Assembly: GCF_000024365.1 (NCBI RefSeq)
Contig: NC_013235.1
Location: 3,906,001-3,970,000 of the forward strand
Reading direction: 5' to 3'
DNA: 64,000 bases
DNA from: Nakamurella multipartita DSM 44233
GTDB taxonomy: Bacteria; Actinomycetota; Actinomycetes; Mycobacteriales; Nakamurellaceae
Each line of letters starts with the position of its first letter. Position 1 is the first letter of the stretch. A program made the translations under genes and the position numbers. The notes under the pieces are model-generated. The model was given only the letters and a program-made list of their open reading frames with translations. It ran no database searches and had not been told where the DNA came from. Positions 31,127 to 53,100 of the stretch are shown here, in pieces.

Positions 31127-31245
31127 GTTATCCCCGGTTCCTGACGCGCCCTCATCACTGTCATCACCGAGCCCTGTCCTGACGTCCTGCCATCGTCGTT
31201 TCCTCGCAATCAGCGGGTCTTCTTCGACGAGATGGAACGGCAACG

Positions 31246-32427
31246 ATGGCGCAGAGCGTGATGGCCCGACCCGACGGCGGGCCTCGCACGTGGACGGTGA
31301 TCGATCAGGGATACCGGACGGTCGGACCGGTCGAGGAGTGGCTGGAGGCCCACCGGCATCTTTGGTCGCCGAACACGGTCCGCGGGTACGCGACCGCGCT
31401 GAGCCAGTGGTGGACGTTCCTTGAACAGCGGGCCGAGTCCGGGCGGTGGAACGAGATCGGCGTGCCGACGGTGTCGGCGTTCGTGTCCTGGATGCGCAAC
31501 GGGCGCCGGGTCGAGCGTTCCCTGGTGCCGGAGGACGGGCCGTCGCCGGAGACGATGCAGGCGCGGCTGGCCGCGGTCATCTCCTTCTACACGTGGCACG
31601 AAGCCGTGTCCGGCGTTCCGGTGGCCGGCCGGTTGATGCGTGGAGCGCCGCGGCGGGCAGTGGCCCGGGGGCTGCTGTCCCATCTGGATGCCCGCTCGGG
31701 GCCCGCTCCGACGTCGCTGGTCCGGGTGCGCCGCAGCCGGCGGCATCGTCCGCCGTTGCTGATGCCCCAGCAGATCCAGGCGATCCTGGATGGCTGCGCC
31801 ACCTACGATCCAGACACCGGTGAATGGGTCGGAAACCTGCGTGACCGGCTGCTTTTCGCCGTTCTTGCGGAGAGCGGCATGCGGATCGGCGAGGCGTTGG
31901 GTTTGCGGATCAGCGACTTCGTGATGGGTCGCGGCGGCACCCCGTTCATCGAGATCGTGCCTCGCGCGGACAACACCAATGGGGCGCGGGTGAAGATGAT
32001 GCGTCCCCGCCGGGTCTACGTCGGCGCCGATCTCGAGCGGCTGTTCGCCGACTACCTGACCCTCCTGGCCTGCACAGCAGCCGATATGGGCATCGCGGTG
32101 GCGGCGGACTCGCCGCTGCTGGTCAACCTGCAACGGCCGCCGCTGCTGGCTGCGCTGCACGAGGGCACCGTCCGCGACAAGACGGCCGCGCTGCGGAAGA
32201 AGGGGATCGGCCCGCCCGGGTGGACCCCGCACTGGTTCAGGCATAGCCACGCGACCGCGTTGCTGCTGGCCGGCACGGCGGAGTGGGTGGTGTCCCGTCG
32301 GCTGGGGCACGCCCACGTCCAGACCACGCTGGACCTCTACGGCTGGGTCCGCGAGGACGAGGCGCTGCGGGCGGCGGCGAACTGGACGTCGTACGCGTCC
32401 AATTGGCGGGTGACCGATGCGCCGTGA
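31246..32427 (+). CDS. tnpA: Tyrosine recombinase TnpA-like (copy 1)
   Basis: The 393-residue protein has an N-terminal SAM-like DNA-binding domain (LEAHRHLWSPNTVRGYATAL) and a C-terminal catalytic domain. The tyrosine-recombinase residues are seen as Arg in LAESGMRIGEALGL, His-x2-Arg in PHWFRHSHATALLLAG, and His and Tyr in LGHAHVQTTLDLYGW. It matches Tn554 TnpA in size and position. Its 3' end overlaps tnpB by 11 bp. The ATG lies 120 bp inside the left end. Confidence 0.93.
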   Translation: MAQSVMARPDGGPRTWTVIDQGYRTVGPVEEWLEAHRHLWSPNTVRGYATALSQWWTFLEQRAESGRWNEIGVPTVSAFVSWMRNGRRVERSLVPEDGPSPETMQARLAAVISFYTWHEAVSGVPVAGRLMRGAPRRAVARGLLSHLDARSGPAPTSLVRVRRSRRHRPPLLMPQQIQAILDGCATYDPDTGEWVGNLRDRLLFAVLAESGMRIGEALGLRISDFVMGRGGTPFIEIVPRADNTNGARVKMMRPRRVYVGADLERLFADYLTLLACTAADMGIAVAADSPLLVNLQRPPLLAALHEGTVRDKTAALRKKGIGPPGWTPHWFRHSHATALLLAGTAEWVVSRRLGHAHVQTTLDLYGWVREDEALRAAANWTSYASNWRVTDAP

Positions 32428-34576
32428 ACCGGGCGGGGGCCTTCGGCCCGCCGAGGACCTGGATCCCGTTCATCGGCTCTGGCTGGAGCTGCCCGAGCAG
32501 TGGCGGGGTCCGGTGATCGGACCCGGCATCGCGAACTGGGACCGGATCACCGAAAACGGCGACAGGCGAATCGATCTGACTGGGCTGCCTGACCCGTTCC
32601 CGGCCGAACTCGCGTGGATGGCGCACTGGCAGTCCGTCGACGGGACCCGATCGACGGTGCTGGCGATGAACCAGCTGGCCAACATCCTGCGCCGCGCCAT
32701 CCGCGAGGGGCACCCGTTCCCCACCTCGATGCTGGCCTTGGACTGGGAGACGGCCTCGGCGTTGCAGGGGTGGTTCTACGCGCACCGCTGGGGGCGGCTC
32801 CCACCCAAGGACAGCCGTAGCCGGCTGCGGGTGCTGTTCCGGTTCGCCCGGCAGGCGTTGATCGCCCGCTGCCACGATGGCCCGTGGTGGACGCTCGACG
32901 AGTGGCATCCACGTTGTGATCCGCGGATACCGCTGTCGACCCGGGAACCACAGGCCAACTACGGGTGCTCGCCCGGGCAGATCACCCAGCCCTGGCTCCG
33001 GGAAGCCGTCAAGTGGTACCTGGGGACCCAACTGGAGTCCGGGGCGCTGCGCTGGACGACCGTGAGCCAGGACCGGATGAATTGCCTGCGCCGGTTCGAC
33101 GTCTGGCTGACCAGTTGCCTGGACGATCCCATCGAGGTGCTCGGCGATCCAGCGGCGGCCGCCGGGCAGGCGGACAGATATCGACGTTGGGCCATGGAAC
33201 CGGGCCACCGGAAGACCGGCACGTTCGACCGTCGGACGCCCCCGAAGCCGGCCCACCCGCGCCTGATCAACGACGACATCCGGGCAGTGGCAGATCTGTT
33301 CACCTTCATGGTGGCCAACCGAGACCGGGCCCACATCGTCACCGGATACGCCGTCTGGGATCGGGTCACCGACACCCACGTGGCCGGATGGTTCCGCCAG
33401 GTCTCCCGCATCCCGCGGACACCCACCCTGAACGACCGGCACTACGTCGACGACCACGCGCTCGCCCAGATTCCGGGTGCGCTGCCGTTGCTGGGCTTGC
33501 CCCGGGACCAACAGATGACGATCACCCGGGGCGACGGCACCCAGGTTCTCGCCGCCGGCTTCGACGATCCGCAGGCGATGCGGATGATCCTGCTGCAGAT
33601 CCTGACCGGGCGTCGGTCCAGCGAGATCCGCACGTGCGAGTTCGATTGCCTGTCACCGGCTCCCGATATCTCGGTGCAGTCCGGGCAGGACCAGGAAGTC
33701 GTCCGGTTCCGCTACGCCCAAAGCAAGATCGACACCGCGCCGGACACCATCCTGGTCGACCGCGAGGTCTCCGCGGTCATCGAGGAGCAGCAGCGTTGGG
33801 TCCGCGAACACCTGCCGGAGTTCGAACCGCGGCATCTGTTCGTGCAGCGGACCGGGAACCGCAACGGCGACAAGCCCTACCCGCCGGGAACCTACAACTG
33901 GATGCTCCGGGAGCTCAGCAACGTCGCGCGGATCACCGACGGCCAGGGCCGGCAACTGCAACTGAGCAACACGCACCGGTTCCGACACACCAAGCTCACT
34001 CGGCTCGCCGAACTCGGCCTGCCCATCCACGTCCTGCAGCGGTACGCCGGGCACGCCACACCGACCATGTCGATGCACTACGTGGCGCAGCGCGAGGAAC
34101 ACGCCGAGCAGGCGTTCCTGGCCACCGTCAAGCTGCGGGCCGACGGCAGCCGGGTCCAGTTCTCCCGTGAGGACCACGACGGCCTGCACCTGCTCGACCG
34201 GGCCGACCGGTTCCTGCCCAACGGCTGGTGCCTGCTGCCCCCGCTCCAATCCTGCGACAAGGGCAACGCATGTTTGAGCTGCTCGGTCTTCGTCACCGAC
34301 GCGACCCACGAGCCGACACTACGACGCCAACAGGCCGAGACCGAAGCGTTGATCACACGCACAACCAACGCGTTTCGGGAGAAGCACGGTCGCGCCATGC
34401 CCGAGGACAATGTTTGGCTCGCGCAGCGTCGAGCCGAGCAAGCGGCGCTCACCCGGCTGTTGGACACGATGGCCGACCACCCCGAACGGGCGGTGCAAGG
34501 AGGCGGATGCGGCGCACCTCCGACAGGCCCGGTGCCCCTGGCACTCACCGGACCCAGGCGCAGGACCCGGCCATGA
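32417..34576 (+). CDS. tnpB: Large tyrosine recombinase TnpB-like (copy 1)
   Basis: The 719-residue protein has a long N-terminal DNA-binding region and a catalytic domain with Arg in LQILTGRRSSEIRTCE, His-x2-Arg in NTHRFRHTKLTRLAELG and His/Tyr in AGHATPTMSMHYVAQR. After the tyrosine a cysteine cluster (LLPPLQSCDKGNACLSCSVF) forms a probable zinc site, a feature of large Tn554 TnpB-type recombinases. Its stop overlaps the tnpC start as ATGA. TnpA and TnpB probably act together on the two ends and the target. Confidence 0.92.
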   Translation: MRREPGGGLRPAEDLDPVHRLWLELPEQWRGPVIGPGIANWDRITENGDRRIDLTGLPDPFPAELAWMAHWQSVDGTRSTVLAMNQLANILRRAIREGHPFPTSMLALDWETASALQGWFYAHRWGRLPPKDSRSRLRVLFRFARQALIARCHDGPWWTLDEWHPRCDPRIPLSTREPQANYGCSPGQITQPWLREAVKWYLGTQLESGALRWTTVSQDRMNCLRRFDVWLTSCLDDPIEVLGDPAAAAGQADRYRRWAMEPGHRKTGTFDRRTPPKPAHPRLINDDIRAVADLFTFMVANRDRAHIVTGYAVWDRVTDTHVAGWFRQVSRIPRTPTLNDRHYVDDHALAQIPGALPLLGLPRDQQMTITRGDGTQVLAAGFDDPQAMRMILLQILTGRRSSEIRTCEFDCLSPAPDISVQSGQDQEVVRFRYAQSKIDTAPDTILVDREVSAVIEEQQRWVREHLPEFEPRHLFVQRTGNRNGDKPYPPGTYNWMLRELSNVARITDGQGRQLQLSNTHRFRHTKLTRLAELGLPIHVLQRYAGHATPTMSMHYVAQREEHAEQAFLATVKLRADGSRVQFSREDHDGLHLLDRADRFLPNGWCLLPPLQSCDKGNACLSCSVFVTDATHEPTLRRQQAETEALITRTTNAFREKHGRAMPEDNVWLAQRRAEQAALTRLLDTMADHPERAVQGGGCGAPPTGPVPLALTGPRRRTRP

Positions 34577-35028
34577 CCGACGCGAACGCGAAACGCGCCG
34601 CGACGCTGACCGCCGCAGCCAAAGCGAAATCAGCCGCGAAGACCCAGGCCGCCGAGCAAGGCATCCGCGCGCTGGTCAAACGGGGCGAGTCCGTCACCTT
34701 CCAGGCCGTTCAACGGGAAGCCGGCGTCTCGCACGCCTTCCTCTACGGCAGCCCGGACCTCCGCGCGCGGATCGAGCACCTACGTTCCCGCGGCCGCCCG
34801 GGACCGACGCCAGCCAACCCACCGGACTCGGAAAGCACGCTCGTCCTGAGCCTGACCGCCCAGATCACCCAGCTCAAGAAGCGGCACCGGCAAGAGATCC
34901 AGACCCTCAAAGACGCGCTCGCGCAAGCCCACGGGGAGAACCTTGAACTTCGCCGCGAACTCGCCCGCAAGGGCAGCTGCGCCCGGCACCACACCGCTCA
35001 CGTTGCATCGATCGCAGAAACGTCATGA
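34573..35028 (+). CDS. tnpC: TnpC-like coiled-coil accessory protein (DUF6262-type, copy 1)
   Basis: The 151-residue protein starts [21 protein letters not shown] TetR-like helix-turn-helix segment ([34 protein letters not shown]) is followed by a coiled coil ([38 protein letters not shown]). Small third proteins of this kind follow TnpB in Tn554-like elements and influence orientation and efficiency of transposition. The ATGA overlap with tnpB and the lack of other genes in the element support this role. Confidence 0.85.
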
Positions 35029-35074
35029 CCAGCGCAAATGTCGCTCGCAGGAGCCCAAACCGTCGATAACGGTC

Positions 35075-36915
35075 GGGCCGAGGAAGATGAACGACCCGAT
35101 GGGCCGCTGGGGGTTCTTGATGCCCGAGCGGGCGCGGACGACGGCGTCGGCCACCAATTGGACTGCCTCGTCCTGGCCGATGACCCGCTCGTGGAGCACC
35201 TCGTCGAGGCGGAGCAGCTTGTCCCGCTCGCCTTCCTGGAGTCGCGTGACGGGGATGCCGGTCCAGCGCGACACGATGTCGGCGATCTCCTCGGCGGTCA
35301 CCACCTCGCGCAGCAGCCGACGGCGGCCCTGCTTTCCCGCGAGCCGGGACTCGGCCGCCTCCAGTCGCCGTTGGATCTCCGGTAGCTTGCCGTGTCGCAG
35401 GGACGCCGCCCGGTTGAGGTCGTATTCGCGCTCGGCCCGCTCGCTCTCCAGCCGTACCTGTTCCAGCTCCTGGCGTAAAGACTGCACCTCGCGCAGTGCC
35501 GACCGTTCGGCCTCCCACTGCGCGCGCAGGGCATCGGCCTCGGCGCGCGCGTCGGCCAGTTCCTTGCGTAGCTCCTCGAGGCGGGCCATGCTCGCGGCGT
35601 CCTCCTCCTGCGAGAGTGCCGCCTCCTCGATCTCCATCCGGGTCACGCGCCTGGTGAGCTCGTCGAGCTCGGTCGGCATCGAGTCGATCTCGGTGCGCAG
35701 CATCGCGCAGGCCTCGTCGACGAGGTCGATGGCCTTGTCGGGCAGGAATCGGTCGGAGATGTAACGGTGGCTCAGGGTCACCGCGGCCACCAGGGCGCCG
35801 TCGTGGATCTTCACGCCGTGGAACACTTCGAGCCGCTCGCGGAGCCCACGCAGGATCGACAGGGCGTCCTCCTCGTCGGGCTCGTCGACGAGGACGGGCT
35901 GGAACCGGCGCTCGAGGGCAGCGTCCTTTTCGATGTGTGTGCGGTACTCGTCGAGGGTGGTCGCGCCGATCATGTGGAGCTCGCCGCGGGCGAGCAGAGG
36001 CTTGAGCATGTTGCCGGCGTCCATCGCACCCTCGGCGGCTCCGGCGCCGACGACGGTGTGCAGCTCGTCGACGAACAGCAGGATGCGGCCCTCGGCGCTC
36101 TGCACCTCGTTCAGCACGGCCTTGAGCCTTTCCTCGAACTCGCCGCGGTACTTCGCACCAGCGATGAGGGCCCCCATGTCCAGGGCGAAGACAGTCTTGT
36201 TCCGCAGACCCTCGGGCACGTCGCCGTCGGCGATGCGCTGGGCCAGACCCTCGACGATCGCGGTCTTGCCGACCCCGGGCTCGCCGATCAGGACCGGGTT
36301 GTTCTTGCTCTTGCGGGAAAGGATCTGGATCGTCCGGCGGATCTCCGAATCCCGGCCGATCACCGGCTCGAGCTTGCCGGAGGCCGCTGCCGCGACGAGG
36401 TCGCGGCCGTACTTGTCCAGCGCCTCGTAGGTCCCCTCGGGGGTCGCCGACGTCACCCGCTGGTGACCGCGCACCTCGGTCAGGGCAGCCAGGAAGGTGT
36501 CGCGGGTCAGCCCGTGAGCGTGGAGGAGCCGCCCGGCCGCCGAGCCCGAGCCCTCATCCACCAGGGCGATCACGAGGTGCTCGACCGAGACGTACTCGTC
36601 TTTGAGCCGGCGGGCCTCGCGGTCGGCAGTGTCGAGCAGCCGCGAGAGCCGCTGGGTGACGTGCACCTGCCCGGGGGTCACACCGGGCCCGCTGACCCGT
36701 GGGCGGCGGCCGAGCTCGGCCTCCAGGTCCTCGCGGATCCGGTCCGGATCGGCTCCAGCCCGGGCAAGCAGCGGCGCGACCAAACCCTCCCCCTGGTCAA
36801 GCAGTGCCAAGAGCAGGTGCTCCCCGTCCACCTCGACGTGGCCGAAGCGCAGCGCCTTGGTCTGGGCGTCGTGCAGAGCCTCCTGCGACTTCTGGGTCAG
36901 TCTGTTCATGTCCAT
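35075..36915 (-). pseudogene. clpB: ClpB, N-terminal fragment ending in the Walker A motif of NBD2
   Basis: The frame starts [20 protein letters not shown] with a GAGGAGG ribosome site. It contains the Clp N domain (about 1-145), NBD1 with an intact Walker A GEPGVGKT and Walker [11 protein letters not shown], the long coiled-coil middle domain (about 400-530) that marks ClpB disaggregases, and the start of NBD2 to FIFLGPT. It then reads into the element as [15 protein letters not shown] and stops at 35023. The protein lacks all of the second ATPase ring, so disaggregation should be lost unless the element excises. The start overlaps cbpM. Confidence 0.93.
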
Positions 36916-37226
36916 GGAACGCCTCCTCGTCGTGACATTCGCCGTTGCTCCTTCTCCAGCACCGCGATCCGGTCGAGCAGCTCGACGACCAGCCCGATGG
37001 CGGAGTAGCCGAGGTTCAGGCTCATCCGCAGCCGCTGGATCCTGGCCATCTCCCTCACCTGGGAGGGGTCGAACCACAAGCGCCCCTGGGCGTCGCGGGT
37101 GACTTCCAGCAGTCCGAGGGCAACCAGGCGGCGGACCAGCTCGGGATGGACGCCGGTGGCCTGCGCAAAGCTGTCGAGGCTGAGCCGGTACGGGCGAGCG
37201 AGGGCGAAGTGCGTGACCGCGGTCAT
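36906..37226 (-). CDS. cbpM: Chaperone modulator CbpM-like (MerR-type HTH fold)
   Basis: The 106-residue protein has a MerR-like N-terminal helix-turn-helix ([40 protein letters not shown]) and an amphipathic C-terminal helix ([20 protein letters not shown]). CbpM proteins bind and control the co-chaperone CbpA, whose gene directly precedes it with an ATGA overlap. HspR, a related MerR-type repressor of dnaK operons in actinobacteria, is the alternative; the longer GLVVELLDR helix and the neighbouring CbpA favour CbpM. Its end overlaps the clpB start. Confidence 0.8.
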
Positions 37227-38197
37227 CGTCTGCTCCTCGCGTCGAAGCTGGACACCCGCGCGAGCTCCTCGAAGAGCCGCTGCTCGTCGTCGGTGAGCCT
37301 GGTGGGCACGCGGATCTGCAATTCGGCGTAGAAGTTCCCCGGCTTCCCTCGCCTGTCGGGAAGCCCGCGGCCCTGGAGCCGCAAGCGGCGGTGGCTGGAC
37401 GAGCCGGCCGGGACCTTCACCGTGGCGGCGCCTCCGGGAGTGTCGACGGAGACCGAAGCGCCCAGGGCCGCCTCCCACGGAGCGACCGGCAGGAGCGCGT
37501 GCAGGTCGCGACCCTCGACCCGGTAACGCGGGTGGTCGGCGATCCGGACCACCAGGTAGAGGTCTCCGGCGGCCGCCGAACCGCCGCCCGATCCGCCCTG
37601 GCCGCGCAGCCGGATCCGCTGACCGTCGACCACGCCCGCCGGGATGGTGACGTCGAGCGTGCGAGGGCCGTCGGGGCCACTGATCGTCACACTGCGCTCC
37701 GTGCCGTGGTAGGCCTCCTCGACCGACACCTCCACCTCGGCCTCGTGGTCGGAGCCCGGGACCGGGCCCGGTCCCCAGCCGGCCCGGCCCCGACCGCCTC
37801 GCCCCCGGCCGCCGAAGATTCCCCCGAGCAGGTCCTCAATGTCGACGTCGCCGAAGTCGCCCGCTCCGAATCCTCCGGACGGACCCGCCCCCGATGACCA
37901 GCGGCCGCGCGTCCCTGCACCGGCGTCGGCGTACGTCCGGGCTTGGCGCCAGGCGGCCGGATCTGTGTCGGGAGGGACGCGTCGGAAGTCCTCGCCGAAG
38001 GCGTCGTAGCGGCGACGCAGTTCGGGATCGGACAGCACGTCGTAGGCCTCGGCGATGTCCTTGAACCGCTCCTCGGCCCCGGAGTGCTTGTTGACGTCGG
38101 GGTGATGCTGGCGCGCCAGCCTGCGGTAGGCCCGCTGGATGTCGGCCGGATCGGCATCGCGGTTGACTCCGAGAACCTCGTAAAAGTCCTGGGCCAT
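37223..38197 (-). CDS. cbpA: DnaJ-family co-chaperone without zinc finger (CbpA type)
   Basis: The 324-residue protein has a J domain ([20 protein letters not shown]) with the HPD motif in [14 protein letters not shown], a Gly-rich linker ([20 protein letters not shown]) and two C-terminal client-binding domains ([40 protein letters not shown]). The four CxxCxGxG zinc motifs of DnaJ are absent, so this is the class B or CbpA type. It stimulates DnaK ATPase activity and delivers clients. It overlaps grpE by one base and cbpM by ATGA. Confidence 0.93.
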
Positions 38198-38730
38198 CAG
38201 CTTGCCCTGGTCGCCACCACGACCGCGGCCGGTCGCAGGATCTTGTCATCGGGCCCGTAGCCGGGTCGCACGACCTGGGCCACGGTGCCCGGCACCAGCC
38301 CCTCACCGGACACAGTGCCGACCGCCTCGTGCACGGCCGGGTCGAAAGCCCTGCCGTCGTCGTCGCGACGCGGGTAGCCGAGGTCGGCAAGGACGCCGAC
38401 CGCTTGCGCCAGCACGGCACGGACACCCTCGACGACGGTGTCGGGGTCGGGGTCGGACGACGCGTGCTCGAGCGCCCGCTCCAGGTTGTCCAGGACGGGT
38501 AGCCAACTGGTTGCCACGGCCGCCCGTTCCTGCTCGCGGCCGCGGACCATGTCCCGCGCGCAACGCTTGCGGAAGTTCTCCAGCTCGGCAGCCGTGCGCC
38601 GCCACGCGTCCTCCAGCTCCGCGATCTGGAGCGCCTGGTCGACGCGCTCGGGGGTCTCGTTCGCCGGAGCCTCGTCGCTTCCTGTCCTGTTGGATGCGGT
38701 CTGGGTCCTGGGTGCCTCGGGGTCGGACAT
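38197..38730 (-). CDS. grpE: Nucleotide exchange factor GrpE
   Basis: The 177-residue protein has an acidic, disordered N-terminus, the long GrpE helix (LEDAWRRTAAELENFRKRCA, DMVRGREQERAAVATSWLPV) and the C-terminal beta domain (FDPAVHEAVGTVSGEGLVPG, TVAQVVRPGYGPDDKILRPA). It releases ADP from DnaK. It lies 5 bp downstream of dnaK and shares one base with cbpA. Its divergent sequence suggests a dedicated partner for this DnaK, perhaps alongside a second housekeeping set elsewhere. Confidence 0.93.
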   Translation of the reverse strand: MSDPEAPRTQTASNRTGSDEAPANETPERVDQALQIAELEDAWRRTAAELENFRKRCARDMVRGREQERAAVATSWLPVLDNLERALEHASSDPDPDTVVEGVRAVLAQAVGVLADLGYPRRDDDGRAFDPAVHEAVGTVSGEGLVPGTVAQVVRPGYGPDDKILRPAAVVVATRAS

Positions 38731-38735
38731 GGCCG

Positions 38736-40634
38736 TCAGTGAGCGGTGAACTCGGCGTCGATGACGTCTTCGTCATCGCTGTCAGTCGTCCTGTCGGAGG
38801 CGTTGGCCGACCCATCCGAAGATCCGCCGCCGCCGGTCCGGGCGGCGGTGCTCAGCACCTGGCCCATCTGGTGGAGCTCCCCGGTCAGAGCGCGGAGGCG
38901 GTCGACCGGTTCGTCGCCGCTCTCGACGGCCTGCCGGGCCTCCTCGACCAGCATCTCGGCGCGGGCGCGGTCGTGCTGGGGCACCGACGCGCCGGCCTCT
39001 TCCAGGGCCCTGCGTACCCGGTAGGCCACGGAGTCGAGCTCGTTGCGAGCGTCAATCCGTTCGCGTAGGGCGGCGTCCTCACTGCGGTGAGTCTCGGCGT
39101 CCTTGATCATCCGGTCGACCTCCTCCTGGCTGAGCCGGGAGGTCTCGCTGATGGTCACCTGCTGCTCGGCACCGGTGTCCTTGTCGCGCGCCGAGACGTG
39201 CAGGATGCCGTTGGCGTCGATGTCGAAGGTCACCTCGATCTGGGGCACCCCGCGGGGGGCGGGACGGATCTTCTCCAGCCGGAACCGGGCCAGCACCCGG
39301 TTGTCGGCCGCCCTCTCCCGCTCGCCCTGGAGGACGACGACGTCGACCGCGGACTGGTTGTCCTCCGCGGTGCTGAAGATTTCGGTCCGCCGAGCCGGGA
39401 TGGTGGTGTTGCGCTCGATGACCTTGGTCATCACCCCGCCCATCGTCTCGAGCCCCAGCGACAGTGGGGTGACGTCGAGCAGCAGCACATCCTTGACATC
39501 GCCCTTGATGATCGCCGCCTGGACGGCCGCGCCGATGGCGACGACCTCGTCCGGGTTGACGGTCATGTTGGGGTCCTTGCCACCGGTCAGGCGGCGTACC
39601 AGGGCCTGCACGGCCGGGATCCGCGTCGAGCCGCCCACGAGGATGACCTCGTCGATGTCATCGGCAGTGACCTTGGCGTCCTGCATGGCCTGCTTGACCG
39701 GGCCCAGGCAGCGCTCGACGAGGTCGGCGGTCAGCTGATCGAACGTCGATCTCATCAGGTTGACGTTGAGGTGCTTGGGCCCGGAGGCGTCGGCGGTGAC
39801 GAACGGGAGGTTGACGGCGGTTTGGGTGACCGCCGATAGCTCCACCTTGGCCTTCTCGGCAGCCTCGAACAGACGCTGCAACGCCTGGGAGTCGCCTCGA
39901 AGGTCGATGCCGTTGGACTTCTTGAAGTCGTCGGCCAGGTAGTCGACGATGCGCCGGTCGAAGTCGTCGCCGCCCAGATGCGTGTCCCCGGCCGTCGACC
40001 GGACCTCGACCACGCCCTCACCCACGGTCAGAATGCTCACGTCGAACGTGCCACCGCCCAGGTCGAAGACCAGCACGGTCTCGTTCTCGAGCTTGTCCAT
40101 CCCGTAGGCGAGGGCGGCCGCCGTCGGCTCGTTGATGATCCGGAGCACGTCGAGTCCGGCGATCTTGCCGGCGTCCTTGGTGGCCTGTCGCTGCGCGTCG
40201 CTGAAGTGCGCGGGGACCGTGATGACCGCCTCGGTGACCCGTTCGCCCAGGAACTTCCCGGCGTCGTCGACCAGCTTGCGGAGCACCTGCGCCGAGATCT
40301 CCTCGGGCGCATAAGGTTTGCCATTGATTTGGAAGCGCGCCGCGCCGTCGGGACCGGCGACCACGTCGAACGAGACGGTTCCCAGTTCGCTGCTGATCTC
40401 GTCGTACTTGCGGCCGATGAAACGCTTCGCGGAAGAGATCGTCCCCTTCGGATTCAGGATCGCCTGGCGTCGGGCCATCTGGCCGACCAGACGCTCGCCA
40501 TTCTCCAGGAAGGCGACCACCGACGGCGTCGTCCGATTGCCCTCGGCGTTGGGAATCACCTGCGGCTGGCCACCATCCATCGCCGCGATCACCGAGTTCG
40601 TCGTTCCCAGGTCGATGCCGACTGCCCTGCCCAT
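38736..40634 (-). CDS. dnaK: Hsp70 chaperone DnaK
   Basis: The 632-residue protein has the ATPase-domain signatures [38 protein letters not shown] and [20 protein letters not shown], the interdomain linker [19 protein letters not shown], a substrate-binding domain and a helical lid. The acidic tail ends in [12 protein letters not shown]. An in-frame upstream start would add eight residues (MLPVNGVV), but ATG 40634 has a GGAG site and gives the standard beginning MGRAVGID. It is the first gene of dnaK-grpE-cbpA-cbpM-clpB-trx. I could not find an HspR (HAIR) or CIRCE element in the 111 bp upstream. Confidence 0.96.
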
Positions 40635-43798: not shown

Positions 43799-43806
43799 GG
43801 CGAACA

Positions 43807-44055: not shown

Positions 44056-44367
44056 CTACGGGAGCTTGGACGCGAGGACGTCGGCCGCCAGGATCTCGGG
44101 TGCTGCGCCGAGGAGGTGCTGGTTGGCCATCAGGGCTGCGACGATGGCGCCGTTGGCGTGGGCGTCGCGAGCGGCCTCGTCGGGGAATGCATCGAAGATC
44201 CAGAAGGTGTCGGCGTGGGTCCTGACCGCGAACCAGACAATCGTTCCTTCTTCTTCGTTGGCGAGCGCGACAGCGCCGGCGAGCAGATCGGCGAGCGCGT
44301 CGTGCTGTCCATCGGCCGCGACGATCTTGGCGACGAAGGCATACGGAAGTGATGCGGGTGTGGACAT
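44056..44367 (-). CDS. Antibiotic biosynthesis monooxygenase (ABM) domain protein
   Basis: The 103-residue protein is one ABM/YgiN-type dimeric barrel domain: FVAKIVAADGQHDALADLLA, EEEGTIVWFAVRTHADTFWI, FDAFPDEAARDAHANGAIVA. These small proteins include quinol monooxygenases and heme-degrading or unknown oxidoreductases. It is transcribed away from the GlxA-type regulator gene across a 108-bp gap, so that regulator probably controls it. Confidence 0.88.
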   Translation of the reverse strand: MSTPASLPYAFVAKIVAADGQHDALADLLAGAVALANEEEGTIVWFAVRTHADTFWIFDAFPDEAARDAHANGAIVAALMANQHLLGAAPEILAADVLASKLP

Positions 44368-44475
44368 GAGGGGTTCTCCTAGGTGTCGAGGTTTCTTGGT
44401 GAAGCGAGTTCAGCGTATGACGAGCAAGGGCATGTGAGAAGTGGCGTATACGGCAGTATTGCTATTGTTCGCGCC

Positions 44476-45417: not shown

Positions 45418-45809
45418 CCTATCGTCATGCCTGTAGCCGGTGTCCTAGTGCTCGACTGGAACCACCTCTCAGCACGTCGCGTCGACGTTCCTGCGTCGCC
45501 CCTGGACGACCCGCTCGACACGCCCGCAGCACAGGCCATGAGACGTGCCCCGGCTTCCCAGACGGTCGGGGTTGGGTGGCTGTGATGTCGCTGCGTTCTC
45601 GTCGAGGGGGTCAGCAGACTCGATCAGGGTCGATTGGGATGAGCCGCGAAGGCGGTCAGGTCAGGGCGGCCGAAGCCGGCCGGCGGGGTAGCGTCGGTCA
45701 CGTCGAGGTCTTTCGGATGGATGGCGTAGGAACCTCCATCGTCGGGAGACCTCGACGTCTATCTGCGGACCGACGCGCCCGGCCGACCTACACCCTCATG
45801 TTTTGCTTC
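45418..45809. other. Intergenic region holding an ISL3 remnant
   Basis: The first 200 bp have no supported gene. From 45646 the DNA copies the right end of the ISL3 element. Just before it, CGATTGGGATGAGCC (45631-45645) matches the reverse complement of the ISL3 left end. An IS3-like element starts at 45810. Confidence 0.5.
45646..45800 (-). repeat. ISL3 end fragment, about 150 bp
   Basis: The sequence repeats 43368-43520 with a handful of differences. It covers the first codons of the transposase (starting with the GFGRPDLTAF region) and most of the right terminal repeat. It diverges just before the outermost bases, where the neighbouring IS3-like element begins. It is a dead relic. Confidence 0.75.
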
Positions 45810-45886
45810 TGACTTCGTGTCAGAGATCGGCGTGTTGATCAGCCAACATCCGACGACTCCTTCGACCCGTCTCGGAGGATCCGAAG

Positions 45887-46231
45887 ATGACCCAACCCGA
45901 TCGTGGCAAGGACCGTGCCGGCCGGCGCACCAAGCGGTTCCTGACGCCCTCGGAGAAGTACGAGATCTGGCTGCAACTGGTCCGGCAGGAGGTGACGATC
46001 GCCGAGGCCGCCGAGCAGCAGCAGGTCGACCGATCAACGATCATGCGGATACGCACCGTCGCCAAGGAGGGTGCGTTGGCCGCGCTCGCTGCGTCCAAGC
46101 CCGGCGTCGCGGCGGCGCAGCGGGACTACGAGATGGAGGCCGCGAAAGCCGAGATCGCCCGGCTGTCCGAGGCGGTCAAGCAGATGGCGGTCAAGCTCAC
46201 CCTGGTCGAGGGAAAAGGCGGCTGGGCCTAG
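45887..46231 (+). CDS. IS3-like OrfA, HTH protein
   Basis: The 114-residue protein has a helix-turn-helix (FLTPSEKYEIWLQLVRQEVT, IAEAAEQQQVDRSTIMRIRT) followed by a leucine-zipper-like coiled coil (AKAEIARLSEAVKQMAVKLT). It probably binds the IS ends as OrfA and forms the N-terminal part of the OrfAB transposase after a frameshift at GGGAAAA (46210-46216). Confidence 0.88.
   Translation: MTQPDRGKDRAGRRTKRFLTPSEKYEIWLQLVRQEVTIAEAAEQQQVDRSTIMRIRTVAKEGALAALAASKPGVAAAQRDYEMEAAKAEIARLSEAVKQMAVKLTLVEGKGGWA
46210..46216 (+). promoter_or_regulatory. Probable -1 programmed frameshift site GGGAAAA
   Basis: In the OrfA frame the heptamer is read G GGA AAA, a standard X XXY YYZ slip site. A one-base backward slip enters the OrfB frame at 46216. 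It lies five codons before the OrfA stop, as in other IS3 elements. Confidence 0.7.
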
Positions 46232-47319
46232 ATGGCCGGGTCCCGCGCCGCGTCGAGGCGGCCATCAAGGATCAGCTGCTCACGCTGCTGGACCAGGCGC
46301 TGGACGCCGGCTGGTCCCTACGCGACGCGTGCGGCGTACTGGAGCTGCCCGAGCGACGCGCGTACCGCTGGTTGGACCGCCGAGCCGAGGGACGGTTGGC
46401 CGACTCGCCGCCGGGCGGGTCGCCGATGCACGGCCTGCTCGACGATGAGGTGGCCGCGGTCCTGGCCTTGTTCGACGAGTGGGGCGAGACCGACCGCAGT
46501 CATCGCAAGCTGGCCCACCGGGGCTCCTACCTGGGCCGGGTATGGGTGTCACCATCAACGGTGCGGCGAGTGTTGTTCCTGGCGGACAAGCACTTCCGGC
46601 CGCTGCCCAAGCCCGGCCGCAGCTCCAAGCGGCCGTTCCCGGAATGGGCCGAGTACAAGCCGAACAGTCTGTGGATCTACGACACAACGCACTTCACCAG
46701 GGCCGGGATGGCGGTGCTGATCGTGGAGGACCTGGTCTCCCGCAAGTGGCTGAGCACGGTCGTGTCGGCCGAGGAGACCTCGACGCAGGTGCAGGTCGGC
46801 TTCACCCGCGCCCTGCACGCCGAGGGGCTGCTACAGCTGGTCGACGCCCGGCACGACGACGGCCGCGTCGACCTGGGCGTCGACGACGAGCACCGGCCGA
46901 TCCTGCTGGCGATCTCGGACAACGGCCCGCAGATGACCTCCGGGTCGACCCGCGAGTTCATGGCGTTGTGCGCGATCGCCCAGCACTTCGGCCGGCCCGG
47001 CACACCGACCGACCAGGCGTGGATCGAGAGCCTCAACGGGCACCTCAAGGCCGAGTACCCGCACCTCCTGGCCATCCGCGACCCGGCTACGCTGCGTGCC
47101 GAACTGGACCAGGTGCGGGCGCACTATAACGGGGTCCGGCTGCACCAGGGCATCGGCTACGTCTGTCCCAACGACGAACACCAAGGACGAGGAGCCCAGA
47201 TCCGCAAGGCCCGCCAGGCCGGCCTGGAAACCGCCCGCCAACGACGGCTAACCTGGCACCGCGAGCACCGGAACGACCAACACCAACCACCCGCCCCGGA
47301 GCCCGACGATGTTGGCTAA
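46216..47319 (+). CDS. IS3-like OrfB, DDE transposase (frameshift-dependent)
   Basis: The roughly 367-residue region contains an HTH_21-like segment (GWSLRDACGVLELPERRAYR) and an rve catalytic core: SLWIYDTTHFTRAGMAVLIV, LLAISDNGPQMTSGSTREFM and TDQAWIESLNGHLKAEYPHL hold the DDE residues. The frame is open well upstream, but no good start is present, so it is likely made as an OrfAB fusion. The catalytic region is intact. Confidence 0.9.
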   Translation, partial: RRLGLDGRVPRRVEAAIKDQLLTLLDQALDAGWSLRDACGVLELPERRAYRWLDRRAEGRLADSPPGGSPMHGLLDDEVAAVLALFDEWGETDRSHRKLAHRGSYLGRVWVSPSTVRRVLFLADKHFRPLPKPGRSSKRPFPEWAEYKPNSLWIYDTTHFTRAGMAVLIVEDLVSRKWLSTVVSAEETSTQVQVGFTRALHAEGLLQLVDARHDDGRVDLGVDDEHRPILLAISDNGPQMTSGSTREFMALCAIAQHFGRPGTPTDQAWIESLNGHLKAEYPHLLAIRDPATLRAELDQVRAHYNGVRLHQGIGYVCPNDEHQGRGAQIRKARQAGLETARQRRLTWHREHRNDQHQPPAPEPDDVG

Positions 47320-47389
47320 TCAAACGCCGAAATGCGTCATTAAGTCAGACACACGTCACTCATCTGGGAAGAGCCCGGTTACGCCCGTA

Positions 47390-47497
47390 GTCGATGAAGC
47401 CGTCGTCTGGAGCGTCGACGACGCGTGAAAAGCATATTGCTCCCACCGAAGACACCCGTGCTGCTGAGTCCGGCTCCTATGAGTTGCGCGGCGAAGC
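47390..47497 (+). pseudogene. Possible TetR-type regulator start, split by IS21
   Basis: Joining the DNA across IS21 at the GAAGC duplication gives a frame reading PTEDTRAAESGSYELRGEAR on the left and TLAILEAALELFLSRP on the right (53620 onward). The second part looks like helix 1 of TetR-family regulators. The frame loses similarity after about 53665. I regard it as an old TetR fragment that was the IS21 target; the evidence is modest. Confidence 0.35.
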
Positions 47498-47566
47498 TGT
47501 CGACGACGCTTGAAAACGAGGCCAAAGCGACGGCCGAAAACGAGGCCACCCAGACAGATTGGATGG

Positions 47567-48799
47567 GTGATCTCTGTGGAGGATTGGGCTCTGATCCGGC
47601 GGCTGGTGGCGGACGGTGTTCCGCAGCGCCAGGTCGCACGGGACCTGGGCATCGGGCGGGCGACGGTGGCGCGGGCGTTGGCTTCGGACCGGCAACCGAA
47701 GTACGAGCGGCCAGTGGTGCCGACCTCGTTCACACCGTTCGAACCGGCGGTGCGTCAACTGCTGGCCACGACGCCGGACATGCCGGCCACCGTCATTGCC
47801 GAGCGGGTCGGTTGGACCGGGTCGATCACCTGGTTCCGCGACAACGTGCGGCAGCTGCGGCCTGAACACCGGCCGGCCGATCCTTCGGACCGGTTGATCT
47901 GGCTGCCCGGCGATGCGGCCCAGTGCGACCTGTGGTTCCCGCCGAAGAAGATTCGGCTCGAGGACGGCAGCAAGACGCTGCTCCCGGTCATGGTGATCAC
48001 CGCAGCCCACTCGCGGTTCATGGTCGCCAAGATGATCCCCACCCGCCACACCGCCGACCTCCTGCTGGCGATGTGGCTGTTGCTGCAACTCCTGGGCAGG
48101 GTCCCGCGCAGGCTGATCTGGGACAACGAGTCCGGCATCGGCCGCGGCAAGCGCCACGCTGAAGGTGTGGGCGCGTTCACCGGCGCCCTGGCCACCACCC
48201 TGATCCGGCTCAAGCCCTACGACCCCGAATCGAAAGGCGTCGTGGAACGCAGGAACGGTTACTTCGAGACCTCCTTCATGCCCGGCCGCGACTTCACGTC
48301 GCCGGCCGACTTCGACGCCCAGTTCACCGACTGGCTCACGATCGCCAACGCCCGAGTGGTGCGCACCATCAAGGCCCGACCCATCGACCGGCTCGATGCA
48401 GACCGGGCGGCGATGCTGCCCCTGCCACCAGTGCCGCCAGCGGTGGGTTGGATCAACCGAGTCCGGCTGGGACGCGACTACTACGTCCGCGTCGACAGCA
48501 ACGACTACTCCGTCGACCCGGCAGTGATCGGCCGGTTCGTCGACGTCACCGCCGACCTGGCACGAGTCCAGGTCCGCCACGAAGGACGCCTCGTCGCAGC
48601 CCATGAACGAGTGTGGGCCCGCGGACAGGTCGTCACCGACCCCGCCCACGTCGCGGCCGCGAAGGCGCTGCGCGAGCAGCTCCAACTGCCCCGACCAGCA
48701 CCCGGCCACCACGACGAACTTGCCCGGGACCTGGCCGACTACGACCGCGCCTTCGGGCTCATCACCGGCGGCCTGACCGACGGCGAGGAGGTGGCGTAA
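47567..48799 (+). CDS. istA: IS21 transposase IstA
   Basis: The roughly 410-residue protein has an N-terminal HTH (VADGVPQRQVARDLGIGRAT) and an rve DDE core (AAQCDLWFPPKKIRLEDGSK, RLIWDNESGIGRGKRHAEGV, DPESKGVVERRNGYFETSFM). A C-terminal Mu-like barrel (DYYVRVDSNDYSVDPAVIGR) follows. GTG 47567 is taken as start because the open frame upstream lies in the terminal repeats. Its TAA overlaps the istB ATG as TAATG. Confidence 0.92.
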   Translation: MISVEDWALIRRLVADGVPQRQVARDLGIGRATVARALASDRQPKYERPVVPTSFTPFEPAVRQLLATTPDMPATVIAERVGWTGSITWFRDNVRQLRPEHRPADPSDRLIWLPGDAAQCDLWFPPKKIRLEDGSKTLLPVMVITAAHSRFMVAKMIPTRHTADLLLAMWLLLQLLGRVPRRLIWDNESGIGRGKRHAEGVGAFTGALATTLIRLKPYDPESKGVVERRNGYFETSFMPGRDFTSPADFDAQFTDWLTIANARVVRTIKARPIDRLDADRAAMLPLPPVPPAVGWINRVRLGRDYYVRVDSNDYSVDPAVIGRFVDVTADLARVQVRHEGRLVAAHERVWARGQVVTDPAHVAAAKALREQLQLPRPAPGHHDELARDLADYDRAFGLITGGLTDGEEVA

Positions 48800-49152
48800 T
48801 GGCTTCGGCGAAGACGAACAGCGGCACGACCGAGGCGCTCAAGCAGCTGACCTACCTGGCGTCGGCGTTGAAGGCGCCACGGATCACCGAAGCAGCAGCC
48901 CGGTTGGCCGACCACGCCCGCGACGCCGGCTGGACCCACGAGGAGTACCTCGCCGCGGTCCTGGACCGGGAGGTCGCCGCCCGCAACGCATCCGGCGCCC
49001 AGCTACGGATCCGCGCGGCCGGGTTCGCCGCACGCAAGACGATCGAGGAGTTCGATTGGGACGCCCAACCCGCCACGCGCCAACAGATCGCCGCCCTGGC
49101 ATCGGGTGGCTTCCTCACCGAAGCCCGCAACGTCGTCCTACTCGGCCCGCCC
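48799..49152 (+). pseudogene. istB: IstB helper ATPase, N-terminal fragment
   Basis: The frame begins MASAKTNSGTTEALKQLTYL, has the IstB N-terminal helical region (YLAAVLDREVAARNASGAQL) and reaches the P-loop strand NVVLLGPP. There the element begins, and translation continues as VIPGS and stops. The C-terminal part is at 53101-53550. Deleting the element and the four carried bases rejoins the gene as GPPGTGKT. Confidence 0.9.
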
Positions 49153-49271
49153 GTTATCCCCGGTTCCTGACGCGCCCTCATCACTGTCATCACCGAGCCC
49201 TGTCCTGACGTCCTGCCATCGTCGTTTCCTCGCAATCAGCGGGTCTTCTTCGACGAGATGGAACGGCAACG

Positions 49272-50453
49272 ATGGCGCAGAGCGTGATGGCCCGACCCGA
49301 CGGCGGGCCTCGCACGTGGACGGTGATCGATCAGGGATACCGGACGGTCGGACCGGTCGAGGAGTGGCTGGAGGCCCACCGGCATCTTTGGTCGCCGAAC
49401 ACGGTCCGCGGGTACGCGACCGCGCTGAGCCAGTGGTGGACGTTCCTTGAACAGCGGGCCGAGTCCGGGCGGTGGAACGAGATCGGCGTGCCGACGGTGT
49501 CGGCGTTCGTGTCCTGGATGCGCAACGGGCGCCGGGTCGAGCGTTCCCTGGTGCCGGAGGACGGGCCGTCGCCGGAGACGATGCAGGCGCGGCTGGCCGC
49601 GGTCATCTCCTTCTACACGTGGCACGAAGCCGTGTCCGGCGTTCCGGTGGCCGGCCGGTTGATGCGTGGAGCGCCGCGGCGGGCAGTGGCCCGGGGGCTG
49701 CTGTCCCATCTGGATGCCCGCTCGGGGCCCGCTCCGACGTCGCTGGTCCGGGTGCGCCGCAGCCGGCGGCATCGTCCGCCGTTGCTGATGCCCCAGCAGA
49801 TCCAGGCGATCCTGGATGGCTGCGCCACCTACGATCCAGACACCGGTGAATGGGTCGGAAACCTGCGTGACCGGCTGCTTTTCGCCGTTCTTGCGGAGAG
49901 CGGCATGCGGATCGGCGAGGCGTTGGGTTTGCGGATCAGCGACTTCGTGATGGGTCGCGGCGGCACCCCGTTCATCGAGATCGTGCCTCGCGCGGACAAC
50001 ACCAATGGGGCGCGGGTGAAGATGATGCGTCCCCGCCGGGTCTACGTCGGCGCCGATCTCGAGCGGCTGTTCGCCGACTACCTGACCCTCCTGGCCTGCA
50101 CAGCAGCCGATATGGGCATCGCGGTGGCGGCGGACTCGCCGCTGCTGGTCAACCTGCAACGGCCGCCGCTGCTGGCTGCGCTGCACGAGGGCACCGTCCG
50201 CGACAAGACGGCCGCGCTGCGGAAGAAGGGGATCGGCCCGCCCGGGTGGACCCCGCACTGGTTCAGGCATAGCCACGCGACCGCGTTGCTGCTGGCCGGC
50301 ACGGCGGAGTGGGTGGTGTCCCGTCGGCTGGGGCACGCCCACGTCCAGACCACGCTGGACCTCTACGGCTGGGTCCGCGAGGACGAGGCGCTGCGGGCGG
50401 CGGCGAACTGGACGTCGTACGCGTCCAATTGGCGGGTGACCGATGCGCCGTGA
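49272..50453 (+). CDS. tnpA: Tyrosine recombinase TnpA-like (copy 2)
   Basis: Its 393-residue product matches the TnpA of copy 1 (31246-32427) throughout. Catalytic residues are in GMRIGEALGL, HWFRHSHATAL and GHAHVQTTLDLYG. It overlaps tnpB by 11 bp. The complete agreement shows either very recent transposition or gene conversion between the copies. Confidence 0.93.
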   Translation: MAQSVMARPDGGPRTWTVIDQGYRTVGPVEEWLEAHRHLWSPNTVRGYATALSQWWTFLEQRAESGRWNEIGVPTVSAFVSWMRNGRRVERSLVPEDGPSPETMQARLAAVISFYTWHEAVSGVPVAGRLMRGAPRRAVARGLLSHLDARSGPAPTSLVRVRRSRRHRPPLLMPQQIQAILDGCATYDPDTGEWVGNLRDRLLFAVLAESGMRIGEALGLRISDFVMGRGGTPFIEIVPRADNTNGARVKMMRPRRVYVGADLERLFADYLTLLACTAADMGIAVAADSPLLVNLQRPPLLAALHEGTVRDKTAALRKKGIGPPGWTPHWFRHSHATALLLAGTAEWVVSRRLGHAHVQTTLDLYGWVREDEALRAAANWTSYASNWRVTDAP

Positions 50454-52602
50454 ACCGGGCGGGGGCCTTCGGCCCGCCGAGGACCTGGATCCCGTTCATC
50501 GGCTCTGGCTGGAGCTGCCCGAGCAGTGGCGGGGTCCGGTGATCGGACCCGGCATCGCGAACTGGGACCGGATCACCGAAAACGGCGACAGGCGAATCGA
50601 TCTGACTGGGCTGCCTGACCCGTTCCCGGCCGAACTCGCGTGGATGGCGCACTGGCAGTCCGTCGACGGGACCCGATCGACGGTGCTGGCGATGAACCAG
50701 CTGGCCAACATCCTGCGCCGCGCCATCCGCGAGGGGCACCCGTTCCCCACCTCGATGCTGGCCTTGGACTGGGAGACGGCCTCGGCGTTGCAGGGGTGGT
50801 TCTACGCGCACCGCTGGGGGCGGCTCCCACCCAAGGACAGCCGTAGCCGGCTGCGGGTGCTGTTCCGGTTCGCCCGGCAGGCGTTGATCGCCCGCTGCCA
50901 CGATGGCCCGTGGTGGACGCTCGACGAGTGGCATCCACGTTGTGATCCGCGGATACCGCTGTCGACCCGGGAACCACAGGCCAACTACGGGTGCTCGCCC
51001 GGGCAGATCACCCAGCCCTGGCTCCGGGAAGCCGTCAAGTGGTACCTGGGGACCCAACTGGAGTCCGGGGCGCTGCGCTGGACGACCGTGAGCCAGGACC
51101 GGATGAATTGCCTGCGCCGGTTCGACGTCTGGCTGACCAGTTGCCTGGACGATCCCATCGAGGTGCTCGGCGATCCAGCGGCGGCCGCCGGGCAGGCGGA
51201 CAGATATCGACGTTGGGCCATGGAACCGGGCCACCGGAAGACCGGCACGTTCGACCGTCGGACGCCCCCGAAGCCGGCCCACCCGCGCCTGATCAACGAC
51301 GACATCCGGGCAGTGGCAGATCTGTTCACCTTCATGGTGGCCAACCGAGACCGGGCCCACATCGTCACCGGATACGCCGTCTGGGATCGGGTCACCGACA
51401 CCCACGTGGCCGGATGGTTCCGCCAGGTCTCCCGCATCCCGCGGACACCCACCCTGAACGACCGGCACTACGTCGACGACCACGCGCTCGCCCAGATTCC
51501 GGGTGCGCTGCCGTTGCTGGGCTTGCCCCGGGACCAACAGATGACGATCACCCGGGGCGACGGCACCCAGGTTCTCGCCGCCGGCTTCGACGATCCGCAG
51601 GCGATGCGGATGATCCTGCTGCAGATCCTGACCGGGCGTCGGTCCAGCGAGATCCGCACGTGCGAGTTCGATTGCCTGTCACCGGCTCCCGATATCTCGG
51701 TGCAGTCCGGGCAGGACCAGGAAGTCGTCCGGTTCCGCTACGCCCAAAGCAAGATCGACACCGCGCCGGACACCATCCTGGTCGACCGCGAGGTCTCCGC
51801 GGTCATCGAGGAGCAGCAGCGTTGGGTCCGCGAACACCTGCCGGAGTTCGAACCGCGGCATCTGTTCGTGCAGCGGACCGGGAACCGCAACGGCGACAAG
51901 CCCTACCCGCCGGGAACCTACAACTGGATGCTCCGGGAGCTCAGCAACGTCGCGCGGATCACCGACGGCCAGGGCCGGCAACTGCAACTGAGCAACACGC
52001 ACCGGTTCCGACACACCAAGCTCACTCGGCTCGCCGAACTCGGCCTGCCCATCCACGTCCTGCAGCGGTACGCCGGGCACGCCACACCGACCATGTCGAT
52101 GCACTACGTGGCGCAGCGCGAGGAACACGCCGAGCAGGCGTTCCTGGCCACCGTCAAGCTGCGGGCCGACGGCAGCCGGGTCCAGTTCTCCCGTGAGGAC
52201 CACGACGGCCTGCACCTGCTCGACCGGGCCGACCGGTTCCTGCCCAACGGCTGGTGCCTGCTGCCCCCGCTCCAATCCTGCGACAAGGGCAACGCATGTT
52301 TGAGCTGCTCGGTCTTCGTCACCGACGCGACCCACGAGCCGACACTACGACGCCAACAGGCCGAGACCGAAGCGTTGATCACACGCACAACCAACGCGTT
52401 TCGGGAGAAGCACGGTCGCGCCATGCCCGAGGACAATGTTTGGCTCGCGCAGCGTCGAGCCGAGCAAGCGGCGCTCACCCGGCTGTTGGACACGATGGCC
52501 GACCACCCCGAACGGGCGGTGCAAGGAGGCGGATGCGGCGCACCTCCGACAGGCCCGGTGCCCCTGGCACTCACCGGACCCAGGCGCAGGACCCGGCCAT
52601 GA
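50443..52602 (+). CDS. tnpB: Large tyrosine recombinase TnpB-like (copy 2)
   Basis: Its 719-residue product matches the TnpB of copy 1 (32417-34576), with the same catalytic motifs (TGRRSSEIR, NTHRFRHTKL, GHATPTMSMHYV) and C-terminal Cys cluster. No stop or frameshift distinguishes the two, so both could supply active recombinase. Confidence 0.92.
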   Translation: MRREPGGGLRPAEDLDPVHRLWLELPEQWRGPVIGPGIANWDRITENGDRRIDLTGLPDPFPAELAWMAHWQSVDGTRSTVLAMNQLANILRRAIREGHPFPTSMLALDWETASALQGWFYAHRWGRLPPKDSRSRLRVLFRFARQALIARCHDGPWWTLDEWHPRCDPRIPLSTREPQANYGCSPGQITQPWLREAVKWYLGTQLESGALRWTTVSQDRMNCLRRFDVWLTSCLDDPIEVLGDPAAAAGQADRYRRWAMEPGHRKTGTFDRRTPPKPAHPRLINDDIRAVADLFTFMVANRDRAHIVTGYAVWDRVTDTHVAGWFRQVSRIPRTPTLNDRHYVDDHALAQIPGALPLLGLPRDQQMTITRGDGTQVLAAGFDDPQAMRMILLQILTGRRSSEIRTCEFDCLSPAPDISVQSGQDQEVVRFRYAQSKIDTAPDTILVDREVSAVIEEQQRWVREHLPEFEPRHLFVQRTGNRNGDKPYPPGTYNWMLRELSNVARITDGQGRQLQLSNTHRFRHTKLTRLAELGLPIHVLQRYAGHATPTMSMHYVAQREEHAEQAFLATVKLRADGSRVQFSREDHDGLHLLDRADRFLPNGWCLLPPLQSCDKGNACLSCSVFVTDATHEPTLRRQQAETEALITRTTNAFREKHGRAMPEDNVWLAQRRAEQAALTRLLDTMADHPERAVQGGGCGAPPTGPVPLALTGPRRRTRP

Positions 52603-53054
52603 CCGACGCGAACGCGAAACGCGCCGCGACGCTGACCGCCGCAGCCAAAGCGAAATCAGCCGCGAAGACCCAGGCCGCCGAGCAAGGCATCCGCGCGCTG
52701 GTCAAACGGGGCGAGTCCGTCACCTTCCAGGCCGTTCAACGGGAAGCCGGCGTCTCGCACGCCTTCCTCTACGGCAGCCCGGACCTCCGCGCGCGGATCG
52801 AGCACCTACGTTCCCGCGGCCGCCCGGGACCGACGCCAGCCAACCCACCGGACTCGGAAAGCACGCTCGTCCTGAGCCTGACCGCCCAGATCACCCAGCT
52901 CAAGAAGCGGCACCGGCAAGAGATCCAGACCCTCAAAGACGCGCTCGCGCAAGCCCACGGGGAGAACCTTGAACTTCGCCGCGAACTCGCCCGCAAGGGC
53001 AGCTGCGCCCGGCACCACACCGCTCACGTTGCATCGATCGCAGAAACGTCATGA
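52599..53054 (+). CDS. tnpC: TnpC-like coiled-coil accessory protein (copy 2)
   Basis: Its 151-residue product matches the TnpC of copy 1 (34573-35028): an HTH-like N-terminal part and a C-terminal coiled coil. It overlaps tnpB as ATGA. The right end of the element is 42 bp past its stop. Confidence 0.85.
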   Translation: MTDANAKRAATLTAAAKAKSAAKTQAAEQGIRALVKRGESVTFQAVQREAGVSHAFLYGSPDLRARIEHLRSRGRPGPTPANPPDSESTLVLSLTAQITQLKKRHRQEIQTLKDALAQAHGENLELRRELARKGSCARHHTAHVASIAETS

Positions 53055-53100
53055 CCAGCGCAAATGTCGCTCGCAGGAGCCCAAACCGTCGATAACGGTC

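Follow-up and report, generated by a model that had tools for sequence, protein, structure and literature searches.

The window analysed here, a stretch of 64,000 bp of contig NC_013235.1 of Nakamurella multipartita DSM 44233 (positions 3,906,001 to 3,970,000), contains two copies of a 3944-bp element, one splitting clpB and the other the istB gene of an IS21 element (Table 1; seven-digit positions are those of the genome). An earlier reading of the window, made from its sequence only, had reported these two copies, and they prove to be identical over their full length. The 6.06-Mb genome holds seven identical copies, five of them outside the window, and every copy has the termini GTTATC...GATAAC. 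Three open reading frames (ORFs) with the same direction fill the element and encode two tyrosine recombinases (PF00589), of 393 and 719 aa, and a DUF6262 protein of 151 aa. We read it as a Tn554-related transposon whose seven copies all lie in the codons of a GP-x-G-[T/V]-G-K-[T/S] Walker A motif (P-loop) and whose recombinases likely recognise this coding sequence as their attachment site (att), a reading to which we give a probability of about 0.82. A search of 16 other genomes of the genus detected no orf2 at an E-value of 1e-30, so that the element seems to have arrived recently and to have multiplied in a burst to its seven identical copies.

Table 1. Features at the two insertions, in window positions.
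Feature	Position	Strand	Remarks
Element copy 1	31127..35070	+	3944 bp, identical to six others
Copy 1 left terminal GTTATC	31127..31132	+	
Copy 1 right terminal GATAAC	35065..35070	+	inverted match to left end
Copy 1 orf1, ordinary-size tyrosine recombinase	31246..32427	+	393 aa (TnpA-size); PF00589 E 1.5e-14; SAM-like N domain
Copy 1 orf2, long tyrosine recombinase	32417..34576	+	719 aa (TnpB-size); PF00589 E 3.4e-9
Copy 1 orf3, DUF6262	34573..35028	+	151 aa (TnpC-size); PF19776 E 2.3e-12
Element copy 2	49153..53096	+	identical to copy 1
Copy 2 orf1	49272..50453	+	identical to copy 1
Copy 2 orf2	50443..52602	+	identical to copy 1
Copy 2 orf3	52599..53054	+	identical to copy 1
Copy 1 left spacer GGTG	31123..31126	.	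probably the target's own, by analogy with other copies
Copy 1 right spacer GGTC	35071..35074	.	probably brought from donor copy
Copy 2 left spacer GCCC	49149..49152	.	target's own; the opposite-orientation 4059814 copy shows the reverse complement GGGC
Copy 2 right spacer GGTC	53097..53100	.	probably the donor's
clpB C-terminal part	30331..31126	-	starts within P-loop (TGVGKT...); AAA_2 E 3.6e-65, ClpB_D2-small E 3.1e-26
clpB N-terminal part	35071..37077	-	ends ...FIFLGPT; AAA_lid_9 and AAA in the 500 junction-side residues; start is ORF start
IS21 istB N-terminal part	48799..49152	+	ends ...NVVLLGPP; PF01695 over cut-off at genome 3954859-3955155; start codon from frame
IS21 istB C-terminal part	53101..53550	+	GTGKTHLA...; IstB_IS21 PF01695 E 7.9e-50

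Insertion within the Walker A codons

All seven copies are inserted at one exact position of the Walker A codons, three along the gene and four against it. The interrupted gene is istB of an IS21 element in six cases, all 12 halves of which pass the PF01695 cut-off, and the second nucleotide-binding domain (NBD2) of clpB in the seventh. Read along the gene, the junction is GGNCC-[4 bp]-GGNNNNGGNAA, i.e. GGNCC-[spacer N4]-GG NNNN GG N AA. The sequence-only reading had placed both window insertions at the same P-loop position, with opposite element directions relative to clpB and istB; the AAA_2, ClpB_D2-small and IstB_IS21 matches bear out the position, and the junctions agree with the directions.

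The strict pattern GGNCCNNNNGGNNNNGGNAARWSN has 93 unoccupied occurrences in the 6.06 Mb (six for the pattern read backwards). Given 100 sites in 6.06 Mb, an insertion at random would strike one of them with a probability of about 1.6e-5, so that seven hits out of seven are not due to chance, even if the copies at 4104939 and 3813289 are counted as one event. T or V stands in the middle of G-x-G at 7/7 occupied sites versus 23/93 unoccupied sites of the genome (p = 0.0001, or about 0.0014 when just the five distinct target sequences are counted).

With regard to the empty site, an intact IS21 at 3158070 is a third copy of the IS21 that holds the insertions at 4104939 and 3813289. The flanks of the 4104939 copy match its istB over 400 bp on each side (99.75% on the left, 100% on the right) and overlap on it by exactly 4 bp, GGTC. 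The intact IS21 is a natural empty site and, since the flanks share exactly these 4 bp, no bases were lost or duplicated beyond the spacer. Two copies of a different IS21 (0 mismatches over 1652 and 514 bp) contain the insertions at 3955153 and 4059814, which occupy one position in opposite orientations, and both left spacers give the target's GCCC.

The identical IS21 flanks at 4104939 and 3813289, which may stem from a single event, are what would be expected if IS21 transposition had carried the seven copies along, or if they had been duplicated, without targeting of their own. The other insertions involve four further target sequences, clpB among them, and both orientations; spacer and gene differences between copies mostly refute such passive spread, which we consider highly improbable.

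Spacers at the junctions and the proposed transposition

Five genomes have two or more readable copies, and of the 19 right spacers compared in them 16 recur as the left spacer of a different copy of that genome. When spacers were drawn at random from copies of other genomes, matches averaged 2.1 and reached at most 8 in 10,000 draws; the reverse polarity gave 10/19. A first run on three genomes had yielded 14/15, against 5/15 for the reverse complement of the right spacer. For each of the seven right spacers of N. multipartita, the genome still contains a copy whose left spacer matches (for two of them, the twin in the same IS21). This footprint, by analogy with Tn554 and SE elements, supports a copy-out/copy-in mode. 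In the relative L085, the agreement with the target extends to the base just within the left end, which suggests a 6-bp overlap.

Based on these observations, a circular copy with the joint GATAAC-N4-GTTATC would recombine with GGNCC-N4-GGNNNNGGNAA in the target, probably through a 6-bp overlap, C-N4-G. The left junction would retain the target's spacer, and the right junction would receive the spacer from the left of the donor copy. The sequence-only reading had described a join at the same 4-bp position in both genes; the position stands, and the 4 bp are better seen as part of the likely 6-bp overlap, with the target's copy on the left and the donor's on the right. Since the DNA to be read is conserved on account of the protein that it encodes, with variation at several wobble positions among used sites, a single recombinase pair would meet suitable sites in many unrelated hosts, with istB of a resident IS21 as the most frequent one.

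Ordinary excision and integration through a double-stranded circle, i.e. cut-and-paste, would form the same joint. Nevertheless, the persistence of the matching-left-spacer copies fits copying, and strand-biased circles are described for SE and Tn552-II (PMC10214605, PMC12486829), so that we regard cut-and-paste as unlikely.

Targets of related elements

Readable insertions of relatives, together with the seven own copies, lie in P-loops in 58 of 68 cases. The main set comprised 63 insertions with a readable junction (all seven own copies counted, two of them with identical flanks), 54 of them in P-loops, namely 51 and three from a lower identity band, with L061 counted as other; L149, L150, L160 and L161 (P-loop) and L040 (prim-pol) were added later. 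Both halves of one P-loop pattern are visible in 38 of the 54. Loci drawn after the claim had been fixed brought four new ones: two P-loop insertions (L160, L161), one duplicate and one unreadable locus. Other copies of the element lying mostly outside P-loops, the outcome that the sequence-only reading had named as speaking against it, is thus not what was found, and its view of a Tn554-related element with P-loop coding sequence as insertion point is supported.

The counts cover the following sample. Plasmid relatives comprised the top 15 of 55 matching records (orf2 at least 53% identical) and H16, H17, H21 and H31; two listed copies of G528 and one of G578 lie outside the sample. Left uncounted were 26 distant loci (orf2 below about 45%, including L063, L064 and L067) with ends that are not definable, the fragment L066, and L024, L026, L052, L059, L065, L071 and L162, which have no readable junction. 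Duplicates were dropped (L068, L081, L084, L090-L093, L096-L098, and L159 as L039), as was L151, which has the left flank of L076 and for which the right end was not found. One scan of viral contigs and the phage records gave no relative, and a search of the genus and family of G377, which has a distant relative only, gave no further ones.

The 10 insertions outside P-loops fall in prim-pol genes (4), ISKra4 transposase genes (3), IS605 elements (2) and a palindrome without an assigned element (1). The prim-pol insertions lie at T[P/A][S/T]GGxH (L040, L055, L077, L078), with PF09250 in the last three and L040 assigned by reading. The ISKra4 insertions lie at IHV[L/V]EYxWKAAW (L044, L054, L085); no Pfam model matched the halves of this transposase, and the NCBIfam model NF033572 did. 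Of the IS605 insertions (PF01385), L045 is within OrfB and L043 in a palindrome at the end of an OrfB frame. L043 and L061 both have the insertion in the centre (TAAA) of near-perfect palindromes. L061 had been a candidate P-loop site; it was a chance match to a weak pattern, in a palindrome with an in-frame stop codon, and was moved to the other class.

Target class largely follows the tree of orf2 (60 rows). ISKra4 and prim-pol insertions each form one fully supported group, and IS605 insertions are grouped at 99/97; L040, unlabelled when the tree was made, groups with prim-pol at 100/99. Above 61% orf2 identity, 58/62 insertions are in P-loops and four in prim-pol genes, and below 58% none of six is in a P-loop. 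The P-loop label changes five times on the tree, at least three changes being forced, with unlabelled and prim-pol rows among the P-loop rows. All target labels require 9 changes versus 13.7 in shuffles (0/200 as low), a contrast that near copies inflate. The sequence-only reading had treated P-loop targeting as a trait of the element; as judged from the sampled loci, it is a trait of a large subgroup and not of the whole family, because relatives with other recombinase sequences use prim-pol, ISKra4, IS605 or palindrome targets.

The used P-loops are not of all types. Of 36 distinct C-sides, 35 have T or V between the glycines of G-x-G and the remaining one has D; L161, found later, exhibits N. 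The A, S and C types, which occur in ABC transporters, were not seen among the used sites. The sequence-only proposal of the P-loop coding sequence as att, with many targets per genome, fits 7/7 own and 58/68 overall insertions, but does not extend to every P-loop. Wobble positions -3, +3 and +15 of the used sites are nearly free (0.23, 0.22 and 0.27 bit), and the codon positions GG, CC, GG, GG and AA around the wobbles carry 2 bits, as do most first and second codon positions. This pattern fits a target read as a protein motif, which the recombinases may require.

Diverse ATPases had been expected as targets. ClpB is the one firmly identified P-loop target other than IstB, and four more are less firm. 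L022 has a C half with an IstB_IS21 domain and, as neighbours, replication- and relaxase-like ORFs (named by reading) with no istA visible. The left flank of L033 is the N half of an RNase_H_2 protein, in which the first half of the P-loop alone is visible. No Pfam family matches the N half of L035, which is followed in a different frame by an ORF with a MarR-like winged helix-turn-helix; the N half of L083 has a NERD domain. Most targets, however, look like IstB of IS21.

The site may thus be istB of IS21 itself, with clpB and the few other P-loops as rare istB-like off-targets. Most readable P-loop insertions have IstB-like flanks (domain-scanned in the own genome, L003, L007, L022 and L058, and judged from 15 residues in the others), the 12 istB halves of N. 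multipartita all belong to this family, and the His found after GK[T/S] in almost every site is IstB-like. On the other hand, clpB was hit at the same base, and the four less firm flanks are unlike IS21 istB. IstB is also a frequent multicopy target and may be hit most often because it is abundant: the own genome retains 12 uninterrupted full-length IstB matches, one of them containing a stop codon. As a narrower form of the P-loop reading, with odds that overlap those of the latter, specificity for istB seems to us possible and rather doubtful.

Several observations weigh against the reading of the P-loop codons as att. IstB homology alone yields the same bit pattern, and since the majority of targets resemble homologous IstB genes, part of the conservation around the site is that of IstB itself. 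Variation is smaller at other wobble positions (+9 0.59, +6 0.77, +12 1.29 bit), and the His after GK[T/S], a feature of nearly every target apart from ClpB, suggests that the DNA motif proper extends further. In the own genome, 23 T/V-type P-loops are still unused. L018, L033, L056 and L076 are flanked by two N-terminal halves, from different P-loop genes, as if opposite-orientation copies had recombined and inverted the intervening DNA; L070 also has two N-terminal halves, by eye, with a left junction one base off. L057 is one base short on the right, and the left flank of L161 matched no identifiable gene. With regard to the spacers, for three of the 19 on the right none of the copies seen could be the donor, and GGTC recurs as the right spacer of six own copies, so that the 19 cases are not independent. 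Finally, we infer both transposition and the circle from the sequence record.

For the family as a whole, we lean slightly towards the view that conserved protein motifs, most of them belonging to other mobile elements, serve as att sites. The recombinases of the different clades would have come to read the codon-degenerate DNA of the P-loop GPxG[T/V]GK (IstB and other ATPases), of prim-pol T[P/A][S/T]GGxH, of ISKra4 IHV[L/V]EYxWKAAW, or of IS605 OrfB and the palindrome at its end. Such elements would be parasites of parasites that gain host range from protein conservation.

Some members differ in their overall structure. L029 has, at 3955-4049, a second GATAAC right end about 94 bp past the first, resembling a tandem duplication of the right end. 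In L040 (54-11462), from a Pseudonocardia bin, about 11.4 kb separate the matching ends within the prim-pol gene, a larger element with other genes inside. The Streptomyces members L020-L023, L049, L051 and L079 have about 450-560 bp more on the right side than the window element, an extension that L025, L047 and L074 lack. L033, a contig of an 'Acidobacteria' bin, has an orf2 identical to that of L095, whose genome is of the window's order, and is probably mis-binned. In N. multipartita, a second clp gene with DNA 81% identical over the 346 bp adjoining the site is uninterrupted.

Comparison with known systems

The sequence-only reading knew of no earlier description. This held for the target: in the available parts of the literature searched, no description of P-loop, istB or motif targeting by such elements was found (that of PMC9332259 was unrelated in content). 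It did not hold for the class and the seven copies, which were printed in 2012: Table 2 of Van Houdt et al. (PMC3414803) gives N. multipartita DSM 44233 with seven copies in a Tn554-related class, and its section 10 names no target and merely supposes several similar attB sites. What is new is the P-loop target, its relation to protein motifs, and the target switching between clades.

Many inteins and homing endonucleases choose the codons of conserved motifs. No intein or endonuclease domain was found by Pfam in the three ORFs and the istB frame stops 18 bases into the element, so that no splicing takes place. Orf2 scores 19.5 bits against the GmtZ integrase model NF047926 of the gamma-mobile-trio (cut-off 600), and the element has two PF00589 proteins, in contrast to the three recombinases of RIT elements and GInts. 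GInts (PMC5385486) likewise exhibit several recombinases and a preferred insertion at a conserved gene (the end of ssb), but comprise four genes and insert mostly at the gene end, whereas the window element lies in a catalytic motif.

SE elements (PMC10214605) also have two recombinases, a donor left spacer that becomes the right footprint, and a circular intermediate, as is proposed here. They differ in a fourth gene (tfp), in the order intA-tfp-intB-srap versus three same-strand ORFs, and in their gammaproteobacterial hosts; the available part of PMC10214605 names no P-loop target for them.

The att site of Tn554 lies in radC. The window element shares with the actinobacterial Tn554-related elements of PMC3414803 an ordinary and a long tyrosine recombinase in the same direction, followed by a TnpC-like ORF; the link to Tn554 follows that paper's statement, and the likeness of orf3 to TnpC follows the paper and the position of the gene. 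Tn554 and Tn552-II have TnpABC, and the donor att reaches the right end through a circle (PMC12486829); Tn554 causes no target duplication, according to the title of a paper cited in PMC10214605. The sequence record of the window element likewise exhibits no target duplication and a donor spacer that would be carried to the right end. In contrast to the one preferred att of Tn554, 'a unique integration site' (PMC3414803), its seven insertions occupy a degenerate codon-like motif in two gene families and in both orientations.

The element offers a testable case for target switching by tyrosine recombinases; its spacers could reveal the order in which transpositions took place, and it may be a source of recombinases whose specificity is at the level of a motif. 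Site-specific elements usually have one conserved address, whereas here one recombinase pair seems to use motif-coding DNA as a degenerate address that is common to many genes and hosts. Most of these sites lie in resident insertion sequences, where insertion would be less harmful to the cell.

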